Source of the DNA: Rhodoferax sp.
GTDB taxonomy: Bacteria > Pseudomonadota > Gammaproteobacteria > Burkholderiales > Burkholderiaceae_C
NCBI GenBank assembly: GCA_030645355.1
Contig: JAUSNJ010000033.1
Location: 1-46,891, forward strand
Reading direction: 5' to 3'
DNA length: 46,891 nucleotides
Shown here: positions 21,899 through 32,467 of the stretch, piece by piece
How the letters are laid out: each line of letters begins with the position of its first letter
Numbering within the stretch: the first letter of the stretch is position 1
Translations under genes and position numbers: made by a program
Notes under the pieces: generated by a model
What the model was told of the DNA's origin: nothing
Seen by the model: only the letters and a program-made list of their open reading frames with translations
Database searches by the model: none

Positions 21899-24800
21899 AT
21901 GGCCCAGTTCTTTATCAACCGCCCCATCTTTGCATGGGTGATTGCCCTCTTCATTCTGGTGATGGGCGGCACAGCCATCACGCAGCTGCCCATCGCGCAA
22001 TACCCGCCGGTGGCGCCGCCTTCCATCGTCATCACGGCGGGCTACCCCGGTGCCTCGGCCCAGATTCTCGAAGACAGCGTGCTCTCCGTCATCGAGCGCG
22101 AAATGAATGGCTCGCCCGGCATGATCTACATGGAGTCGGTGGCGCAGGCCAATGGCACCGGCACCATCACCATCAGCTTTGAGCCTGGCACCAGCCCCGA
22201 TCTGGCGCAGGTGGATGTGCAAAACCGCCTGGCGCGTGCGACCCCCCGTCTGCCCGCTGCGGTCACGCAGGCGGGCGTGCGGGTAGACAAGGCCCGGTCC
22301 AACTTCCTGCTGTTCACGATGTTGTCGTCGGACAACCCGGACATTGACATCGTGGCCCTGGGCGACTACGCCTCGCGCAACGTGCTGCCCGAAATCCAGC
22401 GCCTGCCCGGCATCGGCCAGGCCCAGCTGTTCGGCACCGAGCGCGCCATGCGCATCTGGATAGACCCGGCCAAGCTCAACGGCTACAACCTGTCCGCCGC
22501 CGAGGTGAACGCCGCCATCCGCTCGCAAAACGCCCAGGTATCACCCGGCTCCATTGGCGAGCTGCCCAATATTGCCGGCCAGACCGTCGCCGCCACCGTG
22601 GTGGTGGACGGCCAGCTCAGCGACACCACGCAGTTTGGCAACATCGTGCTGCGCGCCAATACCGATGGCTCCACCGTAAGGCTCAAAGATGTGGCCCGCA
22701 TTGAACTCGGTGCCCAGACCTACGCCACATCGGCCCGCCTGAATGGCAAGCCGGCCGCCGGCATGGGCGTGCAACTCGCGCCCAGCGGTAATGCGCTGGC
22801 AGCGGCCAAGGCTGTGCGCGAGCGCATGGCCGAGCTGGAACCCTACTTCCCCAAGGGCGTGAAGTGGACCATCCCCTACGATGCCTCGCGCTTCGTCAAG
22901 ATTTCCATCTCGCAGGTGGCCGAGACCCTGGTCATCGCCGTGATTCTGGTGTTCCTGGTGATGTATCTGTTCCTGCAGAACTTCCGCTACACCATCATCC
23001 CCACCATCGTCGTACCGGTGGCCCTGCTGGGCACGTTTGCGATGCTGATGGCAATGGGCTTTTCCATCAACGTGCTGACCATGTTCGGCATGGTGCTGGT
23101 GATCGGCATCGTGGTGGACGACGCCATCGTGGTCGTGGAAAACGTCGAGCGCATCATGAGCGAAGAGGGCCTGCCCCCGTTGCAGGCCACGCGCAAGGCC
23201 ATGGGCCAGATCTCGGGAGCCATCATCGGCGTGACCGTGGTGCTGATTGCGGTGTTTGTGCCACTGGCGTTCTTCAAGGGCTCGGTGGGCAATATCTACC
23301 GCCAGTTCTCGGCAGTCATGGTCTGCTCGATTGGCTTCTCGGCCTTCATGGCGCTGTCCCTGACCCCTGCGCTGTGCGCCACCTTGCTGAAGCAGGTGGA
23401 GGCCGGGCACCACCATGCCAAGACCGGATTCTTTGGCTGGTTCAACCGGGGCTTCTCCAGCACCGCCAAGAACTACGAGAGCCTGGTGGCCCGCATTCTC
23501 CAGCGCGCCGGCCGCTACCTGCTCATCTATGGCGCCATCATTGCTGTGGTCGGCGTGATGTATATGCGTCTGCCCACCTCCTTCCTGCCCAATGAAGACC
23601 AGGGCACCATGCTGGTCAATATCCAGCTGCCCCCCGGCGCCACCCGGGAACGCACGCAAAACGTCATGGAGCAGGTGGAGGCCTTCATCCTGAAGCAGCC
23701 CGAAGTGCAGAGCATGGTGGGCGTGATGGGCTTCAGCTTCTCGGGCCAGGGACAGAACGCCGCGCTGGCCTTTGTGACGCTGAAAGACTGGTCTGAGCGC
23801 GCCGGCGAAGAACACTCCGCCCAGGCACTGGCGGGTCGCGCCTTTGGCGGGTTGATGGGCATACGCGATGCCTTCATCTTCCCGCTGAGTCCGCCCTCCA
23901 TTCCTGAGCTGGGCACCGCCTCAGGCTTCACCTTCCGCCTGCAGGACCGCGGTGGCAAGGGCCACGACGCGCTGGTGGCGGCGCGCAACCAGCTGCTGGG
24001 CATGGCCTCCAAGAGCAAGGTGCTCACGCAAGTGCGCCCCGACGGCCTGGAAGACGCCCCGCAGCTGCAGATTGACATCGACCGCGACAAGGCCAGCGCC
24101 CTGTCGGTGAACTTTGACTCCATCAACAGCACCATTTCCACGGCGCTGGGCTCGGCCTACATCAACGACTTCCCCAACCAGGGCCGCCTGCAGCGCGTGG
24201 TGGTGCAGGCCGACGCCACGGCACGCATGCAGCCAGACGATATCCTGAAGCTGACCACGCCCAATGCGCGGGGCGTGCCGGTGCCACTGTCGGCCTTTGC
24301 CAGCACCCGCTGGATCAAGGGCGCCATGCAGACCGTGCGCTACAACGGCTACCCCGCCATGCGCATAGGCGGCAGTGCTGCAACGGGTTACAGCACCGGG
24401 GACGCCATGCTTGAAATGGAAAAGCTCGCCGCCCAATTGCCCGAAGGCTTTGCCTTTGAGTGGACCGGCCTCTCGCGCGAGGAAAAGCTGGCCGGCTCCC
24501 AGGCCATGGTGCTGTATGGCTTTGCCATCCTGGCAGTCTTCTTGTGCCTGGCCGCGCTGTACGAGAGCTGGTCCATCCCCATGGCTGTGATTCTGGTGGT
24601 GCCGGTGGGCGTGCTGCTGGCCACCGTATTGCGTGGCTACTCCAATGACGTGTACTTTCAGGTCGGGCTGATCACCATCATCGGCCTGTCCGCCAAGAAC
24701 GCGATTCTGATCATCGAGTTTGCCAAGGACCTGCAGGCCCAGGGCAAGACTGCCGTGGAAGCGGCACTGGCGGCGGCGCACATGCGCTTTCGCCCCATCC

Positions 24801-25045
24801 TGATGACGTCCATGGCCTTCATGCTGGGTGTGCTGCCGCTGGCGATTTCCAGCGGTGCGGGCTCGGCCAGCCAGCGCGCCATCGGCACCGGCGTGATTGG
24901 TGGCAGCTTGGTCGGAACCATCCTCGCGGTCTTCTTCGTGCCCATCTTCTTCGTGATCGTGCGCAGCATCTTCAAGGGCAGCGAACGCCAGCACCAGTTT
25001 GACGCCGAGCACGGCCACCAGATCGGAGTCGATAGCCATGAATAA
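21899..25045 (+). CDS. acrB: RND multidrug efflux pump, HAE1 family (AcrB type)
   Basis: A 1048-residue inner-membrane proton antiporter, full length for AcrB. N-terminal MAQFFINRPIFAWVIALFI is typical of the family. The proton-relay pair Asp407-Asp408 (GIVVDDAIVVVENV) keeps E. coli numbering, and the relay lysine lies in GLSAKNAILIIEFAK. It exports hydrophobic drugs, detergents or dyes through the partner channel. It begins 12 bases after acrA and overlaps the outer-membrane gene by eight bases, so all three are co-translated. Repression by the upstream TetR protein is likely. Confidence 0.96.
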   Translation: MAQFFINRPIFAWVIALFILVMGGTAITQLPIAQYPPVAPPSIVITAGYPGASAQILEDSVLSVIEREMNGSPGMIYMESVAQANGTGTITISFEPGTSPDLAQVDVQNRLARATPRLPAAVTQAGVRVDKARSNFLLFTMLSSDNPDIDIVALGDYASRNVLPEIQRLPGIGQAQLFGTERAMRIWIDPAKLNGYNLSAAEVNAAIRSQNAQVSPGSIGELPNIAGQTVAATVVVDGQLSDTTQFGNIVLRANTDGSTVRLKDVARIELGAQTYATSARLNGKPAAGMGVQLAPSGNALAAAKAVRERMAELEPYFPKGVKWTIPYDASRFVKISISQVAETLVIAVILVFLVMYLFLQNFRYTIIPTIVVPVALLGTFAMLMAMGFSINVLTMFGMVLVIGIVVDDAIVVVENVERIMSEEGLPPLQATRKAMGQISGAIIGVTVVLIAVFVPLAFFKGSVGNIYRQFSAVMVCSIGFSAFMALSLTPALCATLLKQVEAGHHHAKTGFFGWFNRGFSSTAKNYESLVARILQRAGRYLLIYGAIIAVVGVMYMRLPTSFLPNEDQGTMLVNIQLPPGATRERTQNVMEQVEAFILKQPEVQSMVGVMGFSFSGQGQNAALAFVTLKDWSERAGEEHSAQALAGRAFGGLMGIRDAFIFPLSPPSIPELGTASGFTFRLQDRGGKGHDALVAARNQLLGMASKSKVLTQVRPDGLEDAPQLQIDIDRDKASALSVNFDSINSTISTALGSAYINDFPNQGRLQRVVVQADATARMQPDDILKLTTPNARGVPVPLSAFASTRWIKGAMQTVRYNGYPAMRIGGSAATGYSTGDAMLEMEKLAAQLPEGFAFEWTGLSREEKLAGSQAMVLYGFAILAVFLCLAALYESWSIPMAVILVVPVGVLLATVLRGYSNDVYFQVGLITIIGLSAKNAILIIEFAKDLQAQGKTAVEAALAAAHMRFRPILMTSMAFMLGVLPLAISSGAGSASQRAIGTGVIGGSLVGTILAVFFVPIFFVIVRSIFKGSERQHQFDAEHGHQIGVDSHE

Positions 25046-26486
25046 GCGGCCCATGCAAACACCACGCATCTTTCACCTGGCCAGCCTGACGACGGCCCTG
25101 CTGGCCCCGCTGGCCCCACTGGCATTGACCGGCTGCAGCTTCATACCCACCTATGAGCGCCCGGCCGCGCCGGTGGCCGCCACCTATGCGCCCGAGTTGA
25201 CCAGCACCACTGCCAGCGACCGCGCGAGCCCGGCCGCTGCTGAACTGGATTGGCAGGACTTCTTCAAGGACGCGCGCCTCAAGCGGCTGATTGCGCTGTC
25301 CCTGCAAAACAACCGCGACCTGCGCGTGGCCGTGCTCAGCATCGAGCAGACCCGTGCCCAGTTGCGCCTGCGCCAGGCAGACCAGTTGCCCACGGTGAAT
25401 GCCGGCATCACCGGCACCCGCGGCCCTGTGAGTTCGGGCGCCATCACCGCCACCTATACCGCGGGCTTCAGCGTCACCGCCTACGAGCTGGATTTCTTTG
25501 GCCGCGTCGCCGCCCTGAGCCAGGCCGCCCAGGCCCAGTTGCTGGCCAGTGAGGAGGCCCGCAAGACCGTGCAGATCAGCTTGATTGCCTCCGTTGCCAA
25601 CACCTACCTGGCCCTGCTGGCCGATGACGAGCTGCTGCGCGTAACGCGCGAGACCGTGTCCACGCGCCAGGAGTCCCTGCGCCTGACCCAGCTCAAGTTT
25701 GATAACGAGGCGGCCTCCAAGATCGAACTGAGTCAGTCCCAGTCCCTGCTCGAAGGTGCCAAGGCCGCGCTGGCACAGGCCCAGCGCCAGCGCGTGCTGG
25801 ACGAAAACGCCCTGGTGCTCTTGGTGGGCCAACCCTTGCCCGCCGATCTGCCCGCCGGCCTGCCGGTCACCGCCCAGGGCATGCTGCCCGATCTGCCGGC
25901 TGGCCTGCCGTCTGACCTGCTGACGCGCCGTCCCGATGTGCGCCAGGCCGAACAACAGCTGCTCGCCAACAACGCCAACATCGGCGCCGCGCGGGCGGCC
26001 TACTTCCCGCGCATCACGCTGACCGGCAGCGCCGGTGTGGTCAGCAGCGATCTGGACAACCTGTTCCGCAACGGCACCACCGCCTGGACCTTTGCGCCGC
26101 AACTGCTGGTGCCGCTTTTTGACTTTGGCCGCACCCAGGCCAATGTGGAATCCGCAAAAGTAGCCCGCGACATCGCCGTGGCCCAGTACGAAAAGGCCAT
26201 CCAGACGGGCTTTCGCGAGGTGTCCGACGCCCTGGCCGGCCGTGCCACGCTGGGTGAGCAACTGCGCGCCCAGAACGCCCAACTGGCCGCCGAGCAGACC
26301 CGCATGCAGCTCACCGACCTGCGCTTCAAGCATGGCGCGTCCAATGCGTTTGATGTGCTGGACGCCCAGCGCTCACTGTTTGCCGCGCAACAGGCGGCGC
26401 TGCAGGTTCAGGTGCAGCAGGCGCAGAACCTGGTGACGCTGTACAAGGTGCTGGGCGGGGGCTGGAAGCCGCCGGTCAACCAGTAA
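25038..26486 (+). CDS. oprM: Outer-membrane efflux lipoprotein (OprM/NodT type)
   Basis: A 482-residue TolC-like channel lipoprotein. The signal ends at the lipobox LTGC (Cys about 33), followed by two repeated outer-membrane-efflux domains, recognisable by LDWQDFFKDARLKRLI, YELDFFGRVAAL and LLTRRPDVRQAEQQLLANNANIG cut in two repeats (the first ends about residue 245). ATG 25038 overlaps the end of acrB as ATGAATAA. It completes the tripartite pump. The convergent gene at 26492 starts its stop codon five bases later. Confidence 0.93.
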   Translation: MNKRPMQTPRIFHLASLTTALLAPLAPLALTGCSFIPTYERPAAPVAATYAPELTSTTASDRASPAAAELDWQDFFKDARLKRLIALSLQNNRDLRVAVLSIEQTRAQLRLRQADQLPTVNAGITGTRGPVSSGAITATYTAGFSVTAYELDFFGRVAALSQAAQAQLLASEEARKTVQISLIASVANTYLALLADDELLRVTRETVSTRQESLRLTQLKFDNEAASKIELSQSQSLLEGAKAALAQAQRQRVLDENALVLLVGQPLPADLPAGLPVTAQGMLPDLPAGLPSDLLTRRPDVRQAEQQLLANNANIGAARAAYFPRITLTGSAGVVSSDLDNLFRNGTTAWTFAPQLLVPLFDFGRTQANVESAKVARDIAVAQYEKAIQTGFREVSDALAGRATLGEQLRAQNAQLAAEQTRMQLTDLRFKHGASNAFDVLDAQRSLFAAQQAALQVQVQQAQNLVTLYKVLGGGWKPPVNQ

Positions 26487-26491
26487 GTAGC

Positions 26492-26995
26492 TCAGGCCTG
26501 CAACGGCGTGCGCGACAGCGCCTTTAGAAAGAGAAAGGCGTTGTCGAAGGAATTGGCCTCTGGCGACCGCGGCCACAGATGCTCGGGCGGCAGCGCACCA
26601 AAATAGGTCAAATAGTCCGCCTCCAACAGGCGCACCTTGTCACGCATCTTCTCGGCGGAGCGTATCTGCGCCTCAATGTCGCCGCTGGCCACCTCGGGCA
26701 CGTGGTGGATAAACCCGCCGGTCAGGTCGTGGCAAAACCGCGCGTAGTCCTTGGTAAACAGAATGAAGGTGTGCCACAGTTCGTCCACTTGGCCGCCCGT
26801 CGCGTACGTCTTCTCGGGGTGCAAGGCACACAGGGTGAACCAGCGCTTGAGTTCCAGCAAGGTCTCCGCGGCCAGCTGCGGCGACACGCCGCTGTCCTTG
26901 ATGTACCGGCCAAAGACCTTTCCAAAGTCAAACCGGGAAATCTTGTCGAACAAAAGTTGGGATTGCTCGATGGCAGGGCTGGTTGCAGGCGTCAT
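26492..26995 (-). CDS. Glycine-rich-domain-protein-like (GRDP-like) protein
   Basis: A 167-residue soluble protein. The segment VDELWHTFILFTKDYARFC followed by GGFIHHVPE matches the conserved VDELWH...FC...HH motif of GRDP-like/DUF1399 proteins; its role in bacteria is not known. The Cys/His residues might bind a metal, which is inference. ATG 26995 is preferred to an upstream start at 27019: a -10-like TAAGAT ends eight bases before it, again suggesting a leaderless mRNA. It is divergent from the borosin operon, 150 bases away. Confidence 0.6.
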   Translation of the reverse strand: MTPATSPAIEQSQLLFDKISRFDFGKVFGRYIKDSGVSPQLAAETLLELKRWFTLCALHPEKTYATGGQVDELWHTFILFTKDYARFCHDLTGGFIHHVPEVASGDIEAQIRSAEKMRDKVRLLEADYLTYFGALPPEHLWPRSPEANSFDNAFLFLKALSRTPLQA

Positions 26996-27145
26996 GGCTG
27001 TGCATCTTACGCCGCCCATTGCATGCGCAGGAGCCGGGGCGGGGGTGGCTCTTTTATCGCCAGATACAACTTGTAACGTGGGCTATAGAATCCGCCGTGG
27101 ACTGAAAGTCTTCGTCCCCCTCTTATACCAATCAAAGGAATTGCC

Positions 27146-27367
27146 ATGTCGAAACTCTTGGGTTACCTCAATCTCCTGGACACTGACTCCGAGGCACGCG
27201 CAGCGCACGCGGCGGACCCCAAGGCGGCAATGACGCAATTTGGCCTGAGCGATGCCGAACATGAAGCCGTGTTGTCCGGGGACAAAACGGCGATATCAAA
27301 GCTGGCGGGCGTTGATCTAAAGGACGGACTCACCTCACAAGGAAGCTGTGTCGAAGAGACAAAGTGA
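27146..27367 (+). CDS. Candidate split-borosin precursor peptide
   Basis: A 73-residue peptide. Residues about 1-55 form a helical leader with LLDTDSEARAAHAADPKAAM and FGLSDAEHEAVLSGDKTAI, the pattern (acidic helix, DP..AM...GL....AVLSGD) I know from split-borosin precursors such as Shewanella SonA, often misnamed LigA-like. The tail from about residue 56 (VDLKDGLTSQGSCVEETK) would be the core that the methyltransferase N-methylates. AAAGGA stands eight bases before the ATG. It heads an operon with a GGDEF gene 21 bases on and the methyltransferase at 29151. The family call is strong; the core boundary is a guess. Confidence 0.82.
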   Translation: MSKLLGYLNLLDTDSEARAAHAADPKAAMTQFGLSDAEHEAVLSGDKTAISKLAGVDLKDGLTSQGSCVEETK

Positions 27368-27388
27368 GATAAGGTCCGCACGAATGCG

Positions 27389-29173
27389 ATGGTGATGGGC
27401 AAGCGCATCAGAGCCATTGCCTTGCTGGTGTGCGCACTGGGCTGCTGCAGCCTGGCGCTTGCCGACGCGCCAAACGCAGTGGACGCTTTGCTGGACGAGT
27501 CACTGGCACTGATTATTTCGACACCAGAGAAGGCGTCGGTTCCGTTCGCCAAACTGCAGGCTCTGCGGGGCACCTTTACGCCGGCGCAGAACCATCGCTA
27601 CCACGCGCACTATGCAAAGTACCTGGGCTGGCAGGGTCGGCATGAAGAGCGCATCGCGTTGGTTCAGTCCATCATTGGCCAGGTGACATCACCATCAAGG
27701 CGGGCCTCGCTGCTTTACGATCTGGTGGATGGCAACCGCGCCTTGGGCCACTACGAGAGTGCCCTTCAGGCAATGAATGAATCCATTCTCTTGCTGCCAT
27801 CCATCGACAGTATCAACGCCAAGGCATTGGTGCTCAACGGCGCCGTATCCTTGTTGACTACCCTGCGCGCCTATGACGAAGCCCTGGTGTTTGCTGAGCG
27901 CATCATCGCCCTGGAACCGGACAAAACTGGAACCCGCACACAGTGCCACGGCCTAATTAACAAGGTAGAACTGAATTACAAACTGGGCAACAGACAACTG
28001 GCTGAGTCCCTGGTGCCCGAAACCGTGCTGGCCTGCGATGCCAGCAAGGAACATATGACTACCCTGCTCGTGAAGAGCCTTGCTGCCATTGATTTGATCG
28101 ATTCGGGGCAATACGCAAAAGGCATCACCACCAGCCTGCCCCTGGTACAACAATTTCAAACGGTGGGCACGGGTTCCAACTGGCTGGCGGCCGTGGAAGA
28201 AGCGCTGGCCCGCGCCTACCTGAAGACGGGCGATATGGAGCGCGCTGAGTACTTTGGCACACAGGCCTACCAACGTGCGCAGGCGGCAAAAGATCTGGAC
28301 TGGCAGGAAAAGACCAGCGAAACCATGGCGGCGGTCAAACGCGCCCAGGGCCAATTGACCGCGGCCATTGGCTTTTATGAGATCAATCTGGCATTCAAAA
28401 AGAAGGCCTTTGACGACCAGCAGCAAAAGAATTTGGCCTACCAACGCGTCAAATTCGAGAACCAGGACAAGGCCAACCAGATGGCCCTGCTGGAACAAAA
28501 GAACAAGAACCTCAACACCGAGAAAGCCCTGCAGCACGGCAAGTACCAAAACCTGGTGCTGCTGCTGACGCTGGGCCTGGTGGCCCTGGCGATACTCGGC
28601 GCGAGCCTGGTCCGAACGCTGCGGCAAAAAAACAGCTTCCGCAAATCCGCACAAATCGACGGCTTGACCCAGGTGAGCAACCGGGCGCACTTTACCGAGT
28701 GTGCGCAAAAGGCGTTCAACAACAAGGACAGCGTGGTGAGCCTGGTCCTGTTTGATATGGATTTCTTCAAAAAAATCAACGACACCTATGGCCATGCGAC
28801 GGGTGACTGGGTGCTGAAGACCGTCTGCCATACGGTCAAGCGCAGGCTGCCCAAGGACGCCTGTATGGGTCGCATGGGTGGCGAAGAGTTCGCCATCTGC
28901 CTGCCCACTTTTTCAGCCGAGGAAACCCGGGCGGTGGCAGAGCGCTGCCGCAAAGCCATTGCCACGGTGGACAGCCGCCACAGCGGCTTCAACTTTCAGA
29001 TGACCGCCAGCTTTGGCATCGCGACGCGCGACGCCAATGGGTCATTCAGCTTTGAGCAAGCGCTGGCCGCAGCGGACAAGGCCTTGTATTTTTCCAAGAA
29101 CGAAGGACGCAACCGCGTCACCGTGTACCAACATTCAGATGCCTTCAACCATGACGCAGCCCAGGCCCGGTAA
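27389..29173 (+). CDS. TPR-containing membrane diguanylate cyclase (GGDEF)
   Basis: A 594-residue sensor enzyme. A signal peptide or anchor (residues 4-26) is followed by a helical TPR-like region (about 70-335), a Lys/Gln-rich coiled coil (about 335-385), a membrane segment (about 388-409) and a GGDEF domain with LFDMDFFKKINDTYGH and the active-site GGEEF (497-501). No RxxD inhibitory site is visible in the usual place. It should make c-di-GMP in response to a periplasmic signal. The start is uncertain (ATG 27389 or 27395; no good ribosome site). It lies between the borosin precursor and methyltransferase genes and overlaps the latter by 23 bases. Confidence 0.85.
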   Translation: MVMGKRIRAIALLVCALGCCSLALADAPNAVDALLDESLALIISTPEKASVPFAKLQALRGTFTPAQNHRYHAHYAKYLGWQGRHEERIALVQSIIGQVTSPSRRASLLYDLVDGNRALGHYESALQAMNESILLLPSIDSINAKALVLNGAVSLLTTLRAYDEALVFAERIIALEPDKTGTRTQCHGLINKVELNYKLGNRQLAESLVPETVLACDASKEHMTTLLVKSLAAIDLIDSGQYAKGITTSLPLVQQFQTVGTGSNWLAAVEEALARAYLKTGDMERAEYFGTQAYQRAQAAKDLDWQEKTSETMAAVKRAQGQLTAAIGFYEINLAFKKKAFDDQQQKNLAYQRVKFENQDKANQMALLEQKNKNLNTEKALQHGKYQNLVLLLTLGLVALAILGASLVRTLRQKNSFRKSAQIDGLTQVSNRAHFTECAQKAFNNKDSVVSLVLFDMDFFKKINDTYGHATGDWVLKTVCHTVKRRLPKDACMGRMGGEEFAICLPTFSAEETRAVAERCRKAIATVDSRHSGFNFQMTASFGIATRDANGSFSFEQALAAADKALYFSKNEGRNRVTVYQHSDAFNHDAAQAR

Positions 29174-29978
29174 ATTGATCTGTGTGGGCACCGGCATGCG
29201 CATGGCCGGGCAACTGACACCCTTGGCGCGCAGCTATATCGAGACGGCGGACGTGGTCGTGGCGGCCGTGCCCAACCGCTTTGCACGCAAGTGGTTGCAG
29301 GACATTGCCAAGGAATACATATGCCTGCTGGACTACTACGCGGACTGCGATATTGAGGGCAAGAATCGCCACGACACCTACAGACGCATGTCGGCCACGA
29401 TCCTGGAAGAAGTTCGATCGGGCAAAACGGTCTGTGCCGCTTTTTATGGGCACCCGGGCATCTTTGCCTGCATTGCGCACATGGCGATCAAGGCCGCGCG
29501 CGCCGAAGGTTACGACGCAGAAATGTTGCCCGGCATCTCGGCCGAAGATTGCCTGGTGGCCGATATCGGCATTGACCCCGGTGCCACCGGGATGCAGTCG
29601 ATGGAAGCCACTCAGTTCATGATGTTCGAGCGCAAGCTCGATCCCACCGCTTTGCTGGTTCTGTGGCAGCCCTATATCGCCGGTGACCTGACCCGCAAAC
29701 GTTTCGACACCACAGCGGCCCGCCTGCAGGTGCTGGTGGACAAGCTGGCGCGCGACTACCCGCTGGACCACCCAGTCATCCTGTACGAAGCGGCGACCAA
29801 TCCCCTGGAAACGCCGCGCATGGACACCATCGCGCTGCGCGACCTGCCCAACGCCGTGTTGAACGGCATCACCACGCTGGTGATCCCGGCGGCCTATAAC
29901 TTGAAGCGGGATCAGGCGGTCGTCGACCAATTGAATGCCTTGCCAGAGGCGCTGCCCGAACTGGCGCAGACAGCCTGA
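29151..29978 (+). CDS. Borosin-type peptide alpha-N-methyltransferase
   Basis: A 275-residue tetrapyrrole-methylase-fold enzyme. It opens GKLICVGTGMRMAGQLTP and contains FYGHPGIFACIAHMAI (98-113) and MLPGISAEDCLVADIGIDP (125-143), nearly identical in pattern to the fungal borosin enzyme OphMA and bacterial SonM. Residues for amide activation are present: Tyr62/63, Arg73 and Tyr77 in DYYAD...NRHDTY. Unlike OphMA it carries no core peptide at its end, so it should act in trans on the peptide from 27146, N-methylating backbone amides with SAM. ATG 29151 overlaps the GGDEF gene by 23 bases. Confidence 0.88.
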   Translation: MTQPRPGKLICVGTGMRMAGQLTPLARSYIETADVVVAAVPNRFARKWLQDIAKEYICLLDYYADCDIEGKNRHDTYRRMSATILEEVRSGKTVCAAFYGHPGIFACIAHMAIKAARAEGYDAEMLPGISAEDCLVADIGIDPGATGMQSMEATQFMMFERKLDPTALLVLWQPYIAGDLTRKRFDTTAARLQVLVDKLARDYPLDHPVILYEAATNPLETPRMDTIALRDLPNAVLNGITTLVIPAAYNLKRDQAVVDQLNALPEALPELAQTA

Positions 29979-30009
29979 TCACGCGGCGTTTGCGTTGGCG
30001 CGCTTCACG

Positions 30010-30066
30010 TTTGCTATCGAATAGATAGCTACAGACGCTTATTTCACGAGGGCTAGAGGCCAATTT
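30010..30066 (+). repeat. 57-bp dispersed repeat, copy 5
   Basis: Starts TTTGCTATCGA with partner arm GATAGCTAC, then CGCTTATTTCACGAGGGCTA and GAGGCCAATTT. This best-preserved copy lies between the convergent methyltransferase gene and parC, where it might act in mRNA-end formation for either. Confidence 0.88.
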
Positions 30067-30079
30067 AACCAATAGACTT

Positions 30080-32467
<2,388 letters not shown>

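Follow-up and report, generated by a model that had tools for sequence, protein, structure and literature searches.

The stretch of DNA treated here, which we call the window, comprises positions 1 to 46,891 (46,891 nucleotides) of contig JAUSNJ010000033.1 from Rhodoferax sp. (assembly GCA_030645355.1), and it holds an operon in which a gene for a membrane-anchored sensor lies between the two genes of a split borosin pathway, namely a small precursor peptide and a SonM-type methyltransferase. The three genes are as follows:

27146-27367, plus strand, borosin precursor gene (73 aa)
27389-29173, plus strand, sensor gene with tetratricopeptide repeats (TPR) and a GGDEF domain (594 aa)
29151 (ATG)-29978, plus strand, SonM-type methyltransferase gene (275 aa)

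All three are read in one direction, with a gap of 21 bp between precursor and sensor and an overlap of 23 bp between sensor and methyltransferase, and the open reading frame (ORF) coordinates bear out this layout as it was first proposed from the bare sequence (the original prediction). A scan of named genomes returned 20 relatives of the window enzyme, 18 of them close (Rhodoferax, Undibacterium, Solimicrobium and metagenome-assembled genomes with less precise names). In all 18 close loci the precursor is followed by a GGDEF ORF of 577-632 aa and then by the enzyme on one strand, so the trio is conserved as the original prediction had supposed. Compared with the nearest relative (locus L002; loci are cited by such numbers), the ratio of nonsynonymous to synonymous substitution rates (dN/dS) is 0.26 for the precursor, 0.18 for the GGDEF gene and 0.14 for the enzyme, indicating purifying selection on all three. 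Given the shared gene order and this selection, the operon is not a chance arrangement. The features tested place it with the type IV split borosins, which are those like SonM/SonA, and methylation of its peptide is predicted from sequence.

The window enzyme matches Pfam TP_methylase (E 4e-23), and its best match in the PDB is SonM (E 2e-82, 279.8 bits, 51% identity), followed by OphMA-type enzymes at about 149-165 bits (OphMA E about 7e-44). The borosin motifs and the tyrosine and arginine residues claimed for it are present (YGHPG; MLPGISAEDCLVADIGIDP; Y63, R73, Y77), and Y63, R73, Y77 and Y99 align with Y58, R67, Y71 and Y93 of SonM, for which active-site roles are given in the available part of PMC8429565. 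These four residues are invariant in 22 aligned relatives. Among NCBIfam models the best is YabN, which scores 35 bits where 525 would be needed, and the corrin and siroheme models reach 12-29 bits against cut-offs of 93-400. With these scores and SonM as the best match, an ordinary tetrapyrrole methylase was ruled out, and the enzyme is SonM-like; a grouping with those methylases would have spoken against the original prediction.

The window precursor consists of a helical borosin-binding domain (residues 1 to ~57) and a disordered C-terminal core region (residues ~58-73, GVDLKDGLTSQGSCVEETK). A PDB sequence search with it gave seven rows, all of them SonA entries (best E 0.011). Its AlphaFold2 (AF2) model has a mean confidence (pLDDT) of 79.5, falling below 50 at residues 61-73, and superposes on the SonA binding domain with a root-mean-square deviation of about 1 Å over about 53 residues. 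In the fold search SonA chains filled the first 28 rows; after them came OphMA-type chains for the most part and LigA once, all with E-values no lower than 0.05 owing to the very small size of the domain. In the profile searches, matches of the precursor to LigA and to NHLP-type proteins lay under curated cut-offs and were rejected. A separate precursor with a helical binding domain, as claimed for this peptide, is thus supported, and it is SonA-type by both sequence and AF2 model. Between the window and L002 the core evolves faster than the binding domain, with a dN of 0.56 against 0.10 for residues 1-55, both from few sites. Cores vary by clade, being 'LPxIxV'-like in most Burkholderiales and hydrophobic with a following acidic tail in many Gammaproteobacteria, and the window core is a hydrophilic variant with one Cys, common to the window, L002 and the second set of L199. 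Because this hydrophilic core is unlike that of SonA, methylation is less certain than family membership.

The sensor is predicted to have a signal peptide (residues ~1-26), a TPR region (~27-345, predicted periplasmic), a coiled coil, a membrane helix (~388-408) and a GGDEF domain (421-576). Pfam recognizes GGDEF at E 1e-38 and TPR_12 at E 6.5e-7, the latter with 29.9 bits slightly below the cut-off of 30.1. A fold search with the whole sensor gave GGDEF proteins for all 50 matches listed, the TPR comparison coming from a second search, and a TPR superhelix was recognized in the window sensor. The motif reads GGEEF and the conserved catalytic columns (metal and GTP residues) are kept, in agreement with the diguanylate cyclase originally proposed, whose activity is predicted. 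The I-site RxxD serves product inhibition and is optional among diguanylate cyclases; it is lost in the window sensor (PKDA at the site), and the pattern is found in 69 of 93 GGDEF sensors from the wider set of loci described below. In a few members of that set, L071 (8762-10615, minus strand), L120, L122, L177 and L182, the GGDEF motif is off-pattern with precursor and enzyme kept, and these sensors may bind cyclic di-GMP (c-di-GMP) rather than make it.

The wider set contains 105 loci and is not a random sample, since 40 of the loci belong to a single family and 20 to a single genus, 20 were chosen as relatives of the window enzyme, 23 stem from broad draws, and the last two are the window and another locus of its family (L035 and L036 were excluded as duplicates of L017 and L012). 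A sensor, with the start of its output domain at residue 385-460, is present in 94 of the 105; 83 are of the GGDEF type and 11 carry a kinase. At these 11 loci the precursor is followed by a protein with signal peptide, TPR, membrane helix, HisKA, HATPase and receiver, most with Hpt (Pfam run on all 11). The remaining 11 loci are L021, where GGDEF and methyltransferase are fused, L123, which is cut by the contig end, and nine without a sensor, including L153, whose dCache-HAMP kinase on the other strand was dropped as a candidate TPR sensor. TPR was called by Pfam in part of the sensors and by match to a TPR profile in the remainder, and one such profile is matched by all 93 GGDEF sensors and all 11 kinase sensors over at least 200 columns. 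Aligned with each other, the GGDEF-type and kinase-type profiles share 376 columns (E 2.8e-38, a kind of score that repeats inflate). What cyclase and kinase sensors have in common is the TPR module, the membrane helix and the coiled coil, with no common cytosolic domain. The constant unit is the precursor plus a secreted TPR domain, and the output, GGDEF or kinase, is variable. According to the original prediction, c-di-GMP signalling controls the peptide or is controlled by it; the pairing of peptide and sensor stood, c-di-GMP as the constant part did not, and with the output swapped in 11 loci the claim narrows to a secreted, membrane-anchored TPR sensor paired with the peptide.

The pairing extends well beyond the near relatives, through Burkholderiales and into other Gammaproteobacteria. 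The enzyme was found in 2 of 299 genomes drawn from the family (E 1e-20), 3 of 399 from the order, 10 of 369 from the class and 15 of 398 from the phylum (E 1e-30), the window's own genome being counted in every draw. Class and phylum draws gave 23 distinct loci besides that of the window, all of which were inspected, and a GGDEF sensor lies within 1 kb of the enzyme in 13 of them (12 on its strand), a TPR-kinase in three and neither in seven. By chance 0.97 of the 23 loci would have any GGDEF gene within 1 kb, a figure to be read with the phylogenetic linkage of the loci in mind; the window's genome has 77 GGDEF genes, and the 23 genomes have 2-77. Gene order varies, with enzyme, precursor and GGDEF in Rheinheimera, precursor and sensor together on the strand opposite to the enzyme in L066, and GGDEF and methyltransferase in a single ORF of a Lysobacterales contig (L021, 1-1740, plus strand), which starts at the contig end and has a membrane helix and coiled coil ahead of these two domains. 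In a quick tree of the enzymes with midpoint root, 4 changes suffice to explain the three sensor states (mean of 19.4 after shuffling), and 98 of the 105 enzymes form one group (support 80) containing every sensor-linked enzyme; outside it are the sensor-less L040, L041, L042, L044, L045, L046 and L074. Multiplication is also seen, as L163, L179, L180, L181 and L199 hold either two methyltransferases per sensor locus or two complete tandem sets, and one of the two tandem sets in L199 has two sensors.

Co-occurrence was followed in two genera. In a Shewanella-like genus the TPR profile matches at E <1e-40 in 20 of 20 enzyme-positive genomes (picked by hand from 67, eight of the 20 having contributed rows to the profile) and in 0 of 10 enzyme-negative genomes, although two of these ten match it weakly over part of its length (E about 1e-18 and 1e-19). 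Among 149 relatives of the window's genome, its own included, eight have the sensor, all within its genus. The other seven all have the enzyme too, in the order precursor, sensor, enzyme (L200, L201, L203 and L205 are the same contigs as L002, L006, L007 and L010), and the enzyme is found in none of 20 sensor-free genomes, which were the first 20 of 141, several of them incomplete. In the genera sampled, co-occurrence of enzyme and TPR sensor is near-obligate.

The precursor keeps particularly close to the sensor. For 93 of the 104 TPR sensors the 350 bp upstream contain a small ORF that fits the precursor profile, and in 85 of those cases it is no more than 60 bp away, although these counts are partly circular because the profile (88 candidate ORFs matched in its first round) was iterated on candidates selected by position and seeded partly from the same loci. 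In L004 and L155 there are two precursor-sensor pairs with one enzyme in the stretch inspected.

We clustered neighbouring genes within 6 kb across the 105 loci and inspected the 14 largest families. A GNAT acetyltransferase is encoded at 32 loci, where its 38 genes all share the strand of the enzyme and most are no more than 300 bp away (two checked with Pfam), and a pepsin-like aspartic protease at 20, always upstream on the enzyme's strand (Pfam run on one), with the D[TS]GS motif in 18 and incomplete ORFs in the other two. Both families recur in gammaproteobacterial operons and are restricted to GGDEF-type loci. Ten of the 18 close loci have an M14 carboxypeptidase gene that precedes the precursor gene on its strand (Pfam run on one), directly so in nine, and before the first of two sensors in L003. 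The window gave zero matches when searched with the pepsin and GNAT proteins, and it is not in the list of the M14 family. As for the other large families, one is a mixture of histidine kinases of different kinds and the rest reflect the neighbourhoods of single groups. At L118 (2517-4349) and 19 further loci, the pepsin-like protease stands upstream of GNAT and borosin methyltransferase on the same strand. The borosin operon is a candidate pathway for bacterial pepsin homologues, for which the available parts of PMC4814920 and PMC2761423 name no operon.

Taken together, these features tentatively suggest a pheromone-like circuit, to which we would give a little less than an even chance, with the methylated peptide as message and ligand and the TPR-GGDEF protein as receiver. 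The helical binding domain of the precursor would hold it to the methyltransferase, and the enzyme, judging from its homologues, would N-methylate backbone amides near the precursor C-terminus. A protease would then free the methylated core, and in relatives the candidates for this step are the neighbouring genes for a pepsin-like or an M14 enzyme. The freed peptide would presumably reach the periplasm, where it would bind the secreted TPR domain, and a signal passing through membrane helix and coiled coil would alter the GGDEF domain and hence the level of c-di-GMP. Peptides with a methylated backbone are reported to cross membranes more readily. A wider and somewhat more tentative proposal would make the SonM-type split borosins of Proteobacteria the ligands in a whole family of peptide-receptor signalling systems, in which the secreted TPR sensor encoded next after each peptide reads it and passes the signal to c-di-GMP or a hybrid histidine kinase, with acetylation and excision by a cytoplasmic pepsin homologue from the same gene row in many species.

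Several observations weigh against such a circuit. The route to the periplasm is a weak point, since the precursors have no export signal (a hydrophobic N-terminal stretch is found in just 2 of 96) and no peptide exporter appears among the 14 largest neighbour families. The structural and profile matches of the TPR part are partly generic, so that peptide binding does not follow from them, the Cys pair is absent from kinase-type sensors, and the GG[DE]E motif searched for is absent in 6 of the 93 GGDEF sensors. The window core is hydrophilic, seven of the 23 broad-draw loci have no sensor, and the processing genes, which neither the window nor many other loci have, would fit a secreted natural product equally. 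A recognized upstream precursor is missing for 11 of the 104 TPR sensors; eight of these are extra sensors in multi-sensor loci, L157 and L181 have an unrecognized small acidic ORF, and in L038 the precursor match is about 3 kb from its enzyme. Finally, precursor covariation is 0.38 with the enzyme, 0.14 with TPR and -0.06 with GGDEF, a weak test on 80 loci.

The same genes could also be read with the sensor upstream of the peptide, responding to some other periplasmic cue and controlling through c-di-GMP or a phosphorelay the making or release of the borosin, which would be an effector, e.g., an antimicrobial or a metal-related metabolite. A shared operon and near-obligate co-occurrence fit a dedicated regulator equally, GGDEF and kinase are ordinary regulatory outputs, and adjacent acetyltransferase and protease genes suit a natural-product pathway; the processing genes in fact fit both readings in which a peptide is released. 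Yet precursor and sensor are adjacent in all gene orders and multiply together in L004 and L155, neither of which a regulator of the whole operon needs, the 14 largest neighbour clusters include no peptide exporter or immunity family, and, as weak tests, a promoter scan of 26900-30150 and an Rfam scan of the window gave zero matches. We consider this reading a serious contender, less likely than the pheromone-like circuit. An intracellular role is less probable again: the precursor-enzyme complex would act on the cytosolic part of the sensor, the methylated precursor modulating cyclase or kinase without being released. This would agree with precursors devoid of export signals and with the single GGDEF-methyltransferase polypeptide of L021, which places the enzyme on the cytosolic side, but L021 is a lone case at a contig end, the part shared by all sensors is TPR module, membrane helix and coiled coil rather than a cytosolic domain, and protease genes at many loci suggest release by cleavage.

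Mere neighbourhood of a functionally unlinked borosin and cyclase is very improbable, since even with GGDEF genes as common as in the window's genome, the 13 broad-draw loci with a TPR-GGDEF gene within 1 kb far exceed the 0.97 expected for any GGDEF gene (the loci not being independent), and enzyme and sensor co-occur in both genera sampled. Barely credible is an ordinary tetrapyrrole methylase beside a small ORF that is no precursor; TP_methylase names a superfamily that also contains borosin enzymes, whereas the NCBIfam scores far under their cut-offs, the 279.8 bits to SonM and a precursor model that folds onto SonA all stand against it. What favours the peptide as input of the sensor, over a regulator or an intracellular contact, is the swap of output with TPR kept, the adjacency of precursor and sensor, and the doubled pairs.

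The operon parts and the pathway type are known already. The SonM sequence matches 67 of 77 genomes of one genus, and one locus, L105, is 100% identical and was taken by us to be S. oneidensis. There the sonA stop directly abuts a TPR-GGDEF ORF of 596 aa with zero bases between, and a sensor is found at 19 of 20 loci of this genus, L123 meeting the contig end while holding the sensor start. According to the original prediction, no described borosin operon was known to contain a GGDEF sensor; such a sensor is not unique to the window, given this recurrence after sonA and the Figure 1 legend of PMC11395268 (2024), which lists a GGDEF domain among borosin architectures. Some borosin-GGDEF association has thus been published, without discussion of GGDEF in the text passages found of that paper, and GGDEF is never mentioned in the available main text of PMC8429565. 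Like the SonM/SonA system of PMC8429565, as far as its available part goes, the window has a separate enzyme, the four active-site residues, a SonA-type binding domain and a TPR-GGDEF gene. It differs in order (precursor, sensor, enzyme, instead of enzyme, precursor, sensor), in its hydrophilic, Cys-containing core and in the lost I-site of its sensor.

TPR receptors of peptide pheromones are known from the RRNPP group, such as Rap and NprR, which are cytosolic with a helix-turn-helix (HTH) or phosphatase-type part. The borosin-linked sensors differ by a predicted periplasmic, membrane-anchored TPR part and a GGDEF or kinase output, and the peptide would be an N-methylated, ribosomally synthesized and post-translationally modified peptide. 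With signal peptide, membrane helix and GGDEF instead of a cytosolic HTH or phosphatase part, the window sensor is not an RRNPP member and at most works alike. The proteases at the 20 loci resemble the shewasins (PMC4814920, PMC2761423, as far as available) in being DTGSS-type aspartic proteases without evident signal peptide, and shewasin D is described in the available part of PMC4814920 as mainly cytoplasmic. The words operon, acetyltransferase, methyltransferase and GGDEF are absent from the available main texts of both papers. In the literature searched, zero papers joined borosin and c-di-GMP, and the pairing with the sensor, its kinase variant, the co-occurrence of enzyme and sensor and the link to pepsins did not turn up either; the search was partial and priority is uncertain.

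Upstream of the operon, the window holds an RND efflux pump (AcrB family) with an outer-membrane channel (21899-26486, plus strand), which also adjoins the operon in a few near relatives and is read as genus neighbourhood rather than as exporter, and a divergent 175-aa ORF (26492-27019, minus strand) with no Pfam match at E 0.001. Borosins of other types appeared among the sensor-less loci. L046 (7075-7842, plus strand) and L022 (575-1342) encode a multi-core precursor of 255 aa with repeats of the PQIYPQVHPQLVIH kind, adjoining a SonM-like enzyme in the window's family. In L074 (5454-8978, minus strand) a SonM-like domain occupies residues ~66-326 of a 1174-aa ORF that matches nothing else in Pfam and may be a fused borosin of a different type. 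L040, L042 and L044 share an adjacent family of 440-470-aa proteins in a different borosin context:

L040, 10030-11379 and 11373-12755, members of the 440-470-aa family
L042, 5764-7173, member of the same family
L044, 3704-5029, member of the same family

According to the available part of the 2021 discovery paper (PMC8429565), no type IV borosin pathway had been linked so far to a final natural product. A near-obligate third gene, encoding a membrane TPR sensor whose output can be exchanged, provides a definite role for these pathways that can be put to the test, and since SonM and SonA of S. oneidensis have already been purified and crystallised, the sensor idea is approachable there. If it is true, N-methylation of the backbone would have a part in signalling, a class of ribosomal peptides would join the inputs of c-di-GMP, there would be a candidate substrate for the cytoplasmic pepsins of bacteria, and the TPR pheromone receptors would have a Gram-negative counterpart that uses a ribosomal, backbone-methylated peptide.

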